Of a stretch of 64,000 nt of DNA, positions 2,330 through 8,398 are shown one piece after another. The stretch covers positions 682,001-746,000 of the forward strand of contig NZ_JAAIYO010000001.1 of assembly GCF_014930455.1 (NCBI RefSeq). Direction: 5' to 3'. Source of the stretch: Corallococcus soli (GTDB lineage Bacteria > Myxococcota > Myxococcia > Myxococcales > Myxococcaceae). The translations under genes and the position numbers were made by a program. Positions within the stretch are counted from its first letter, which is position 1. The number at the start of each line of letters is the position of its first letter. The notes under the pieces were generated by a model. The model was not told the origin of the DNA. It worked only from the letters and a program-made list of their open reading frames with translations, and made no database searches.

Positions 2330-3139
2330 CTACGCGGGGAACGTGGCGGCCACGGCGCGCACGTGGTCCTTCACCAGCGCGCGCGCTGCGAGGAGCGCCG
2401 GGGCGTCCGCGGGCGTGTAGCCCAGGCACAGCACTACGTCGTCCTCGGGCGCGGCGGGCGTGCCCAGGGCCGCGTAGTCGAGCGTGCGCGGGACGGGTTC
2501 GTCCTCCGTGTCGTGGGTGAAGCGGCCGAACACGGAGGCCTGGCCGTCACGACCGGGAGCCGTCTCCTTCAGGGCGAAGAGGCGGCGCACGGCGAGGAGG
2601 GATTCGGGGCGCTCGCGCAGGGCCTCCGGGCGGGCCGGGCCCCCCAGCTCCCATTCGAGCAGCTTCAGGCAGCCGCGCACGAACTCCACATCGGTGATGA
2701 CCAGGCCATAGAGGTACCAGTCCGCGCACGCGGCCTGGACCAGCCGGGCCTGCGCGTCCGTGAGCCAGCCGAAGGACGGGCAGGTGAACGTCTCGCAGAT
2801 GGACGCGCGGTAGACGCCGCAGTCGCGCAGGTCCGTGCCGCCCGTCACCTTCGGGTGGCCCAGGCAGCCCACCTGTCGCTGCTCCGCGTCCAGGAAGCCC
2901 AGCAGCGGACACACCCGCACGATGGGGAAGAGCGCGGGGGCATCGCGGTTCGCGGTCAGCTCGCGCGCGGCCTCGCCATAGGCCTCCGGCGTCCGGGGCG
3001 CGTGGGACAGCCGCGCCGTCTGCGTGGCCAGCCGCTGGGTGAGCGCCGCGCGCGAGTGGTCGCGGAAGTTGTAGAGGCCGCAGCAGGCGCCGCATGAGGC
3101 GCCCCCACCGGGCTGGCACAGGTGGAAGGAGACGGACAT
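2330..3139 (-). CDS. Cysteine-rich protein of unknown function (CxACC cluster)
   Basis: The reading frame extends upstream into the acyl-CoA dehydrogenase gene, but the ATG at 3139 gives a compact 269-residue protein starting MSVSFHLCQPGG. The N-terminus carries CGACCG, resembling the CC clusters of YkgJ-like metal-chelating proteins. Further Cys residues occur in VCPLLG, GCLGHP, DCGVYR and the motif ICETFTCPSFG. It may bind a metal or an Fe-S cluster, but no family was assigned with certainty. It is followed 95 bases later by the repeat lipoprotein and lies 32 bases below the acyl-CoA dehydrogenase, consistent with one transcript. Confidence 0.7.
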   Translation of the reverse strand: MSVSFHLCQPGGGASCGACCGLYNFRDHSRAALTQRLATQTARLSHAPRTPEAYGEAARELTANRDAPALFPIVRVCPLLGFLDAEQRQVGCLGHPKVTGGTDLRDCGVYRASICETFTCPSFGWLTDAQARLVQAACADWYLYGLVITDVEFVRGCLKLLEWELGGPARPEALRERPESLLAVRRLFALKETAPGRDGQASVFGRFTHDTEDEPVPRTLDYAALGTPAAPEDDVVLCLGYTPADAPALLAARALVKDHVRAVAATFPA

Positions 3140-3171
3140 GCCGCCATTGTGACGGATCTCGGGCCCGGGTT

Positions 3172-4989
<1,818 letters not shown>

Positions 4990-5646: not shown

Positions 5647-5682
5647 GCGGAGCGGCGTGAAGCGCTGGGTGCATTCCCCGAG

Positions 5683-5732
5683 GCCATGGGAGGATGCGCC
5701 GGGTGAGATTCACGCTCGGGTGCTTCCTGGTG
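5683..5732 (+). repeat. 50-bp direct repeat, copy 1 (leader and signal-peptide start)
   Basis: This segment is identical to 6313-6362 except for one base (A at 5712, G at 6342). It covers the ribosome site, start codon and first codons of the lipoprotein signal. Confidence 0.9.
5688..5693 (+). promoter_or_regulatory. Shine-Dalgarno GGGAGG favouring GTG 5703 over ATG 5694
   Basis: GGGAGG directly abuts the ATG at 5694 (zero spacing) but lies nine bases before the in-frame GTG at 5703, so initiation at GTG is more plausible. The same arrangement recurs at 6318-6323 with GTG at 6333. Confidence 0.55.
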
Positions 5733-6233
5733 CAGGGATGGTTGGTGCTCATGCTGGTGCTGTCCGGATGCAGGACTCCCGTGGCGGCGTGGACGGGCAC
5801 CGTCGAATGGCCGGACGCGCAGTCAGCCCGACCCGTTGGCAACCCCATGCCCGCAGGCGCGGCCCAGGCCGCGGTGGGCGCCATCCGCGAGTTCGTGAAG
5901 ACCACTCCCCATCGGGTGTTCTTCGGCTGTGAGCGTCCCGAGGACGGACTGAACGTGTCGCTCTTCACGGGGCCAACGCCGGGGCTGTACTACGTGCTGC
6001 TGGATCCCGACTTCGAACGCTGCTCGGGGCCGCGCAGGCGCATCCTGGATGGATGGTTCTTCTATGCAGTCACGCCTCGGGGAGACGTGGTCGCGGAGTC
6101 TCCAGGCCCTCCTGAAGAACGTGCTCCCGAGGTGCCACCGGCGCCCCAGACTCCGCCCACGGCACCCGTGGAGCCCCCCGCTGAGTCGTCACCTCCCGCG
6201 CCCGTGAACGAAGCTCCGGCTCCGGCCCCCTGA
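5703..6233 (+). CDS. Lipoprotein, paralog A of a duplicated pair
   Basis: The product is about 176 residues with a lipoprotein signal (lipobox VLSGC). A conserved domain of ~110 residues contains VEWPDAQSA, FTGPTPGLYYVLLDPDF and YAVTPRGDVVA. A Pro/Ala/Glu tail ends APVNEAPAPAP. The domain is clearly paralogous to the gene at 7086-7610, including the tail. No known family is recognised, and outer-membrane or periplasmic anchoring is inferred from the lipobox. The start was placed at GTG 5703 on ribosome-site spacing; ATG 5694 is the alternative. Confidence 0.75.
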   Translation: MRFTLGCFLVQGWLVLMLVLSGCRTPVAAWTGTVEWPDAQSARPVGNPMPAGAAQAAVGAIREFVKTTPHRVFFGCERPEDGLNVSLFTGPTPGLYYVLLDPDFERCSGPRRRILDGWFFYAVTPRGDVVAESPGPPEERAPEVPPAPQTPPTAPVEPPAESSPPAPVNEAPAPAP

Positions 6234-6312
6234 TATTTCACCGGCTGGCGATAACTGGCTCGCACCGTCATCAGCGGTTCACTGGAAACACCTGGGACGC
6301 GGCCCCCCCGGG

Positions 6313-6362
6313 GCCATGGGAGGATGCGCCGGGTGAGATTCGCGCTCGGGTGCTTCCTGGTG
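6313..6362 (+). repeat. 50-bp direct repeat, copy 2
   Basis: This is the second copy of the leader at 5683-5732, with 49 of 50 bases identical. It supplies the start region of the interrupted JAMM-like lipoprotein and points to local duplication or recombination. Confidence 0.9.
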
Positions 6363-7073
6363 TCACTGCTCGTGGGGTGCGCGACTGCTGCCCCGGTCGC
6401 GGCGGCGAAGTCCGTCCGAGGTCCCTGGGCGCGGATCCCGGCCGTCGAAATGCCAGCGGAAGACAGGTCGATTCCCATCGACTTGCTGCGGGACGTCGCG
6501 GATGCCCTGCTCCAACGCCCCGGAGCGCGGATGTGCGATCCGGTGACCCGGCGTCCCATCAAGGGGTTGTCCACGGAGTATTGCGCGACGGTCTACGTCG
6601 CTGGAGGACAGGACGCGCTGTCCTGGCGGGTGTCCGAGCCTGTACTGGGGAGCCATGATCGCTGCTCCGTGCCGCTCCATGTCGAAGACGATGACCACCC
6701 GGCGCGGAGCGTCTGGGTGGTGGGCTTCATCCACAACCACCCGTGTGGCAGCCCACCCTCTTCCGTGGATCTCCTGGCCTGACCAACCGATGCGGTCGAC
6801 CCCATGACGGCCATGGCGGTGGTCCGTCTTGTCCCCGGCAATCCCGCGCCCGCCTTGTTCAAGGGGCTGGCCATCGAAATGGCGTCTGCGGTGGTCGCGG
6901 AGCGCGAGGATGGAACGCGTGTCTACCTGCGCTATTTCCCCACGGGTGAGGTCGAACAATGGAGCGGAACCCGACGCAGGTGGGTCCCGCTGGGAACCTG
7001 CGCGCCCACATTGAGCCAGTTCGGTGTGGCACCCCGGTGTACGAATTGGCCGCTGCGACTGCTGCGCGAATAG
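6333..7073 (+). pseudogene. JAMM-like lipoprotein interrupted by an in-frame TGA
   Basis: A single frame runs from 6324/6333 to the TAG at 7071-7073 with one internal stop, TGA at 6780-6782. The N-terminal part has a lipobox (LLVGC) and reaches GFIHNHPCGSPPSSVDLLA, a JAB/MPN metalloprotease-like signature of HxH followed by S and D. The spacing is one residue shorter than the canonical HxHx7Sx2D. After the stop the same frame continues as PTDAVDPMTAMAVVRLVPGNP and a plausible C-terminal domain of ~90 residues. A TGG-to-TGA change would restore an intact ~247-residue protein. Alternatives are genuine two-part translation from ATG 6804, or a sequencing error. The genes on either side are paralogs of each other. 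Confidence 0.7.
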
Positions 7074-7085
7074 GAGCCAGGAACG

Positions 7086-7610
7086 ATGGTCAAGGCAATG
7101 GCAGCCGCACTCGTCGCGATGCTCACGGGATGTGTCGCGCCGTCGAAGACGTGGAAGACGCCGGTTGAATGGCCGGACGAGCGCTCAGCCCAGCTCGTGG
7201 GACAACCCATGCAAGCAGGGGCTGCGGTGGCCGCAGCGGGAGCGGTGCGTGAGTTGGTCCGCACGAACGCCGACCCGACGTTGTTCGAAGGGTGCTCCAG
7301 CCCGGAGCAGGGGCTGCTGGTCGCTGTGTTCACGGGACCGACGCCGGGGCTGTTCTACGTCGTCGTCCACCAGGACTTCAGACCCTGTGGTGGGCCGCGC
7401 ATCCGGGTCCTCGATGCCTGGGATGCCTATGCGGTCACGCCCCAGGGTGACGTGGTGGCAAGGGCCCCTCCGCCGCCGGGTGATCCTTCCTTCTCAGCGC
7501 CTCCGCTTGAGGAGCCAGCGCCTCCAACTGCTCCCGAACCCGCGCCGCCTCCACCTGCTCCCGCGCCCGTGAACGAAGCTCCGGCTCCCGCCCCGACTCC
7601 CGCTCCCTAA
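7086..7610 (+). CDS. Lipoprotein, paralog B of the duplicated pair
   Basis: The product has 174 residues, with signal MVKAMAAALVAMLTGC giving a lipobox MLTGC. The central domain matches paralog A at 5703-6233 closely (VEWPDERSA, FTGPTPGLFYVVVHQDF, YAVTPQGDVVA). The tail is a long Pro/Ala stretch with the same APVNEAPAPAP element. It starts 13 bases after the broken JAMM-like gene, with AGGAG/AGGA sequences upstream. Its stop codon overlaps the convergent FRG gene by four bases. Function is unknown. Confidence 0.75.
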   Translation: MVKAMAAALVAMLTGCVAPSKTWKTPVEWPDERSAQLVGQPMQAGAAVAAAGAVRELVRTNADPTLFEGCSSPEQGLLVAVFTGPTPGLFYVVVHQDFRPCGGPRIRVLDAWDAYAVTPQGDVVARAPPPPGDPSFSAPPLEEPAPPTAPEPAPPPPAPAPVNEAPAPAPTPAP

Positions 7611-8398
7611 CGGAGCCGGGGACCGTAGTAGCGGCGCAGCCAGCGGCTCAGGCCGTCCAGGCCGGGGAAGAGCACGCGCTCGGTGATGTTCGCCTGATCG
7701 AGCTTGTCCCGGACCTCCCACTTGAGCGCCGCCGGCACGATGAGCCGCCGCACGCCCCGGTGCTGGTGTCCCAGGAACACGTTCAGGCTCAGGCCCGGGC
7801 CGTTCATCACCGAGAACAGCGCGAACTGGTTCACGATGCGCGCATCCAGCGACGGCGGCTCGAAGAACAACACGAACGGATGCTCCGCCAGCCCGTCGAA
7901 CGTCGGCAGGTCCCCGGCCACCGACGCCAGCATCTCCGCCGTGAACACGTCCGCGCCTTCCAGCCGCAGCTGCTCACGCAGCGGCCCGGGCAACTGCTGG
8001 TTCGTCTGGTGGTAGTCCACGCACCAGATGGCACCGTCCTTGTCCAGGTAGTCCTGGCGCTCGGTCATGAAGTGCAGCGCCACGTACGGGCTGAACGTCC
8101 AGTCCAGGAACCGCGTCGGCATCCCGTGGTGCTGCGCCAGCGCCAGCCAGTCCCACACCGACGTGAGCTGCGCCGTGCCCGGCACGCCCCGCGCGTACTT
8201 GCGGAAGGCCCTCAACAGGTCCCGCTCGTGCCGCACGAACGCACCCTGCCGGTTGAGCGTCGCGGACAAATCCAGCGTCGCATCCGGAATGCCGCGGAAG
8301 ACGAAGCTTGTTCGAAAGCGGCCGAGCGGCTCGTTCCACGAACCGGCGAACAACACCTCCTGCAACTCCAGCCATGATGTGACGCGCTGTTCCTGCAT
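7607..8398 (-). CDS. FRG-domain protein
   Basis: The product is 263 residues. The FRG signature is visible from FVFRGIPDATLDLSATLNR (~30-48, giving the family name motif F-R-G) through RAFRKYA and WLALAQHHGMPTRFLDWTFSPYVALHF (~100-126), the conserved block of this family. FRG domains are found alone and in proteins near mobile or defence genes; their biochemical activity is not settled. The ATG at 8398 has GAGGG at good spacing. The downstream neighbours are convergent lipoprotein genes. Confidence 0.9.
   Translation of the reverse strand: MQEQRVTSWLELQEVLFAGSWNEPLGRFRTSFVFRGIPDATLDLSATLNRQGAFVRHERDLLRAFRKYARGVPGTAQLTSVWDWLALAQHHGMPTRFLDWTFSPYVALHFMTERQDYLDKDGAIWCVDYHQTNQQLPGPLREQLRLEGADVFTAEMLASVAGDLPTFDGLAEHPFVLFFEPPSLDARIVNQFALFSVMNGPGLSLNVFLGHQHRGVRRLIVPAALKWEVRDKLDQANITERVLFPGLDGLSRWLRRYYGPRLR

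Follow-up and report, generated by a model that had tools for sequence, protein, structure and literature searches.

Within the window, the whole stretch of 64,000 nucleotides of Corallococcus soli DNA analysed here, two lipoprotein genes flank a JAB/JAMM-like gene that is stopped by an in-frame TGA, raising the question of whether this codon marks a gene end, a readthrough site or a lesion, and why the lipoprotein genes on either side stay open. All parts of the first-pass annotation's observation are confirmed, namely two lipoprotein (lip) paralogues, a stopped JAB-like gene between them, and a near-identical repeat. The site comprises the following features:

3172–4989, minus strand: flanking gene, presumably acyl-CoA dehydrogenase-like; left border of the site in relatives
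5676–5732, plus strand: leader copy 1, with ribosome site, start and first half of the JAB-gene signal peptide; fused to lipA
5703–6233, plus strand: lipA, lipoprotein gene lacking its own JAB gene; frame open, with a lipobox and a Pro-rich tail
5733–6233, plus strand: lip body of lipA, downstream of the fusion point at ~5730–5733
6306–6362, plus strand: leader copy 2, the corresponding segment of the JAB-like gene that survives, with ribosome site, start and half of the signal peptide
6333–6782, plus strand: JAB/JAMM-like lipoprotein gene, cut short by the TGA; 6324 is an alternative start
6576–6578, plus strand: codon of E85 in the TEYC motif, candidate JAB glutamate; nearly invariant
6732–6770, plus strand: HNHPCGSPPSSVD, candidate metal motif; H137 and H139 are invariant, S146 and D149 almost invariant
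6780–6782, plus strand: in-frame TGA; Trp in 28/28 homologues chosen as intact
6783–7073, plus strand: 3′ remainder of the JAB-like gene beyond the TGA; homologous to the C-terminal region in full-length relatives
7086–7610, plus strand: lipB, partner lipoprotein gene of the broken JAB-like gene, 12 nt past its old stop
7607–8398, minus strand: flanking gene with no role assigned; marks the right edge of this site in relatives

Gene layout and the in-frame TGA

The lipA and lipB frames are both open and their products 56% identical over 163 aa, in agreement with the description of paralogous lipoproteins flanking a gene, with lipoboxes read by eye as LSGC in lipA and LTGC in lipB. An alternative start of lipA lies at 5694; the conserved starts of lipA and the JAB-like gene are probably the GTG codons at 5703 and 6333, since the nearest ATG is out of frame in several relatives. 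Among the matches listed, several Corallococcus relatives carry the JAB–lip module at the same site in one to three units, adjoining counterparts of the gene at 3172–4989 (~90–92% identical), of that at 7607–8398 (89–92% identical, next to a lip gene in at least eight loci), or of both. Corallococcus interemptor (L037) has three units at the site, the first JAB gene being broken, and in C. llansteffanensis (L034) the order is lip, JAB remnant, lip, JAB, lip. Scans of the three window proteins returned no Pfam family up to E 1 and a single chance-level match in NCBIfam (GltJ to lipB, E 0.76), with a scan for sigma-70 promoters and terminators giving nothing above shuffled sequences.

As first annotated, the frame of the JAB-like gene runs on past the TGA, remaining open for 96 more sense codons to a TAG at 7071–7073. 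The suggestion of a fresh nonsense mutation is supported by the aligned relatives, with the codon being Trp and the frame continuing in 17/17 close and 28/28 wider homologues, the rows of the wider alignment having been selected as intact and a copy with TGA at the same codon (L087) lying outside the set. No homologue ending at the TGA, with a separate gene at 6804, is present among the rows of both alignments. The dN/dS against the nearest relative is 0.13 before the TGA and 0.16 after it; as these values are alike on both sides, the lesion is either recent or an assembly error, and the part downstream was probably under selection until recently. A sequencing or assembly error appears quite improbable: the TGA is a one-base difference from the aligned relatives, a set that holds no other strains of the species, in a draft of 68 contigs, yet a real lesion is unremarkable given the broken copies that other genomes have, including copies contained in a single contig (G006, G010, G014).

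The first-pass annotation also offered stop-codon readthrough, which finds no support here. A programmed readthrough of the TGA, or its recoding as Trp, would fit its place at an otherwise invariant Trp, the L087 copy in Myxococcus (G090), where this codon and a second invariant Trp are both TGA and the frame is otherwise open, and a copy of the more distant class II, in G014, with a TGA at a Trp. However, TGA is an ordinary gene end here, terminating lipA, and elsewhere in the family the damage consists of different stops, frameshifts and deletions. Of nine selected stops in colinear frames of the family, five are not Trp-to-TGA changes (read by eye, they include TAG in place of Gln, Trp and Tyr codons). 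Owing to this variety of stop types and lesions, readthrough or recoding is rejected as exceedingly improbable. Transition routes suffice for the four stops that are Trp to TGA (p 0.23), the nine-stop set leaving out L037, L094, L051 and L178, whose stops lie in frameshifted or non-homologous stretches. Judged from the aligned frames, the TGA at 6780–6782 is a lesion, an ordinary nonsense mutation and not the gene end. The JAB-like gene of L087 lies on the reverse strand at 3037–3771, its host being Myxococcus-like by kinship group.

The JAB-like protein, its partner and one-sided loss

The description of the interrupted gene as JAMM-like holds for its motif residues, but profile support is weak. 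In the 28-homologue alignment the candidate metal-site residues E85, H137, H139, S146 and D149 are invariant or nearly so. The canonical JAB spacing is HxH-x7-S-x2-D, and the spacing in this family is one residue shorter. Pfam Prok-JAB (PF14464) matches 12/29 members with a best E of 0.044, and among ten rescanned proteins five matched and none reached the curated cut-off of 25 bits (best 14.1). Profile-profile comparison with Prok-JAB gives E 0.063 for class I, 0.22 for class II alone and 0.018 for both, with probabilities below 3%. Like the Prok-JAB/JAMM peptidases, the family has its TEYC glutamate (E85) and HxH in register in two of these three low-probability comparisons (class I and combined, with class II alone lacking the Glu), but it differs in being a lipoprotein with conserved cysteines whose scores fall below the cut-off. 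Fold prediction for the JAB-like protein yielded a mean pLDDT of 74 in one of five models and 39–47 in the others, with Foldseek finding no match for either model at E≤0.001 and a second structure comparison of the one usable JAB-like model giving a best Z of 3.9 (fructose-bisphosphatase) and listing no JAB structure, so that the fold comparison is uninformative. A PDB sequence search with the JAB-like profile gave no match up to E 10. JAB membership of the family is thus a weak assignment, drawn from the motif and sub-threshold profile matches.

The JAB-like protein of ~250 aa consists of a signal peptide followed by a domain, is conserved over most of its length and has no variable C-terminal toxin domain; by eye, the window protein carries the lipobox LLVGC, and many relatives carry lipobox-like sites. 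A third, more distant lipoprotein-like protein containing HNHPFGGPPSPGD is encoded in the same genome (L160, 4812–5579, reverse strand, G000:C5), and many relatives also carry short Prok-JAB matches similar to that of L160.

Matches to the module at E≤1e-10 occur in 46 of the 145 genomes of the order, 46/46 of them in the window's own family. For a census of gene loss, 96 family genomes were searched by JAB and by lip and the close-class neighbourhoods scored with custom profiles of both genes, "intact" meaning that the profile core lies in a single, stop-free frame, and class II pairs staying outside the census. An intact lip lies directly behind 36 of the 38 intact JAB genes, these 36 pairs sharing order and strand with a median of 43 nt between profile ends, and the distances of JAB and lip partners correlate (Mantel r 0.72, p 0.0001, shared ancestry still included). 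Class II, ~30% identical, repeats the JAB–lip pair several times in the window's genome (G000), with four pairs at L152 (5748–6899 and 8440–9633), L153 (4419–5582) and L154 (4389–5523), the lips of which have an apparent signal peptide and, by eye, no clear lipobox.

Among the 82 intact lip cores, an intact JAB gene precedes 36 and a broken or remnant one precedes 19, lipB of the window being one of the latter; 27 have no JAB gene directly upstream. The two intact JAB genes without an intact partner have a broken lip (L088) and no lip (L092), respectively. In pairs with two recognisable genes of which only one is broken, the damage lies in the JAB gene 19 times and in the lip once (sign test 4e-5, or 4e-4 allowing for gene length); leaving out the weakest remnant (L105, 23 residues at E 0.01) gives 18 to 1 (8e-5 and 6e-4). 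The lesions differ among loci, but the loci are partly non-independent and draft assemblies may add false stops. Loss of the JAB gene with retention of the lip is recurrent.

Several scoring decisions define these counts. L086 and L089 were scored as intact JAB genes despite profile matches that stop short, and L092 likewise although the S/D half of its motif is missing, whereas L046 (G010) was scored as broken, its signal peptide sitting in another frame. The 19 to 1 comparison leaves out L118, L121, L123, L124, L125 and L151 (broken or partial lips, no JAB), L085 (both genes broken) and L098 (near a contig end); the lips of L034 (5907) and L097 reach a contig end, and the weaker lips of L148–L150 were placed among the 27 JAB-less ones, their leaders being compared and found not fused. 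At individual loci, L046 (7100–9568, one contig) has a broken JAB gene followed by three divergent intact lips, and L092 (reverse strand 3042–3791, G108) encodes a divergent, lip-less JAB-like protein that keeps HxH and has lost the S/D part. The pair of Myxococcus xanthus AM003 (L085/L146) is doubly broken, with a TAG in the JAB-like gene and a frame change in the lip, and a further lip of the window's genome (L099, reverse strand 2864–3462, G000:C5) is preceded by two short remnants of JAB genes (E 3e-5 and 0.05).

One explanation for this asymmetry is that the lip acts in the envelope independently, and that the JAB-like protein, which would process it as a peptidase or regulate it, can be dispensed with, its loss being tolerated. 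That JAB-less lips are open and look constrained, with a median dN/dS of 0.21 (28 pairs of 24 lips, dS below 1) of which part may predate the JAB losses, agrees with such a role, as does the stability of the pair and its conservation in many genomes, and a lip that could be retained for a JAB-independent function counts against any reading of the pair as toxin and antidote. However, this account predicts neither strings of divergent lips, such as the run of three that follows a broken JAB gene in G010, nor that only 2/38 intact JAB genes lack an intact lip, and we consider it rather unlikely.

The repeat and the origin of the lipA leader

The reported repeat of 49/50 bases is exact, its best 50-base match lying at 5682–5683 with an offset of 630. 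At full length the repeat extends over 5676–5732 and 6306–6362 with 55/57 bases identical, and a genome search recovered the same 57 bp at 96% (E 1.8e-19), which argues against chance. The accompanying claim of recent duplication does not hold in the sense intended: lipA and lipB are each closer to counterparts in other species than to each other, indicating old paralogues, and the repeat is a JAB-gene leader left on lipA after loss of the JAB body.

The native start of the lipA counterpart is visible in C. praedator (L131), where the protein begins MQRVHGWLGLMLVLSGC. Compared with it, window lipA has the first half of its signal peptide swapped for that of the JAB signal peptide, with the lipA body aligning with native lipA of three relatives (L131, L127, L132) from ~5730–5733 onward and the two parent sequences sharing only a few bases at the switch point. 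The DNA 5′ of lipA aligns with the region 5′ of the C. praedator JAB gene; with upstream DNA and leader both matching a JAB gene, lipA has acquired its ribosome site and leader from a JAB gene whose body is missing. The lipA leader is also nearer the window's own JAB leader (55/57) than the JAB leaders of other species, as is the case in L034 and L041, so that recent exchange between tandem leader copies is likely too.

Leader fusion is not confined to the window. When 83 lip leaders were compared with 50 JAB leaders, four more lips being added later, six in-frame fusions were identified, namely window lipA, L034:3528, L041:1717, L102:445 (its contig supplies just 444 bases of upstream sequence), L103:3218 and L110:3053. 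L110:3053 is the weakest, with a score of 25 (35.5 with softer penalties). Non-fused lips score ≤15 except L046:8560, which was left uncounted, its score of 46 stemming from DNA outside the leader that matches an intergenic region at another locus. All six fusions fall among the 27 JAB-less lips, compared with 0/55 of the other intact lips (p 0.0008; p 0.002 without L110 and three weak lips). At L159 (4675–5199, G014, one contig) the N-terminal part of a class II JAB gene is joined in frame to a lip; this join was considered as a leader fusion and left uncounted, a signal peptide being absent by eye.

These fusions also bear on whether the family is simply decaying as a redundant set of genes, without conflict and with neither gene special. 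Further distant copies in the genome are in keeping with redundancy, and the four of nine selected stops that are Trp to TGA show no excess over transition routes. Simple decay is nevertheless unlikely, since loss is one-sided, at 19 to 1, and JAB leaders have been joined in frame to lips six times. On present comparisons the window site is very probably the remains of a tandem array of the JAB-like lipoprotein and lip module, with the lesion history described above. As reconstructed from the alignments, it holds two stages of that history: one JAB gene lost with its leader captured by lipA, and a second just stopped by TGA.

A possible toxin-immunity pair and its known counterparts

The kept partner, tight pairing, divergent lip strings and leader capture together make toxin and immunity protein the most likely roles for this pair. 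The JAB-like lipoprotein would act in the envelope of related bacteria as a toxin and the lip would neutralise it, the contest being placed in the envelope because both proteins carry lipoboxes. The only intact-frame JAB-like protein without a lip (L092) also lacks the S/D half of the motif, which we count in favour of this reading. We give an even chance to the module being a Myxococcaceae toxin-immunity pair of JAB toxin and lip immunity protein, with toxin genes decaying and immunity genes persisting, the function being deduced from sequence. A fuller version is more tentative, and we lean somewhat against it: a Myxococcaceae-specific two-lipoprotein system passed on with outer-membrane material, the toxin being delivered by lipoprotein exchange between cells. 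Lips without a toxin gene would then protect against neighbours, with antidotes outliving toxins through what we term leader capture, in which the toxin gene would lose its body while the antidote gene gains, in frame, the ribosome site and signal peptide of the toxin. If so, one-sided loss and leader capture would form a genomic record of toxin carriers becoming resistant bystanders, and the lip strings provide ready-made pairs for probing the specificity of immunity.

A literature search on SitA, JAMM and DUF4329 topics returned no description of this family in the titles and abstract openings of the top-ranked results, and 23 lips gave no match to Pfam immunity families at E≤1. Tox-JAB-2/DUF4329 (PF14220) shares the E, HxH, S, D motif and is matched weakly by 3/29 members (best E 0.05), but nothing exceeds the cut-off; a DUF4329 search found no match in 20 genomes, nor in 14 controls, and is hence uninformative. 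The strings of divergent lips resemble the strings of non-identical esaG immunity paralogues in firmicutes, which belong, however, to a type VII secretion nuclease system, according to the parts of PMC9484751 drawn on here.

A closer likeness is to Tox-JAB-1, a JAB-type toxin described in the sections of Zhang et al. 2012 (PMC3482391) used here as strictly paired with Imm65, a lipobox-bearing immunity protein that is the only one of that survey apparently a lipoprotein. In those sections Tox-JAB-1 lies behind RHS repeats in Bacteroidetes, whereas the JAB-like protein is a free lipoprotein of ~250 aa in Myxococcaceae without RHS repeats. Myxobacteria exchange outer-membrane content on contact, and the SitA/SitI system of Myxococcales likewise has a lipobox lipoprotein encoded upstream of its partner in many divergent copies, as described in the portions of PMC5562445 and PMC8546572 consulted. 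SitA differs in having an escort domain of ~375 aa and a nuclease C-terminus, both absent from the JAB-like protein of 249 aa, and SitI is not termed a lipoprotein in those portions, whereas the lip has a lipobox. Myxobacterial kin discrimination by exchanged lipoproteins is already known from the SitA nucleases, and the present module, if the proposal is true, would provide a second lipoprotein family, with a metalloenzyme-like motif, that acts in the envelope and need not enter the cytoplasm.
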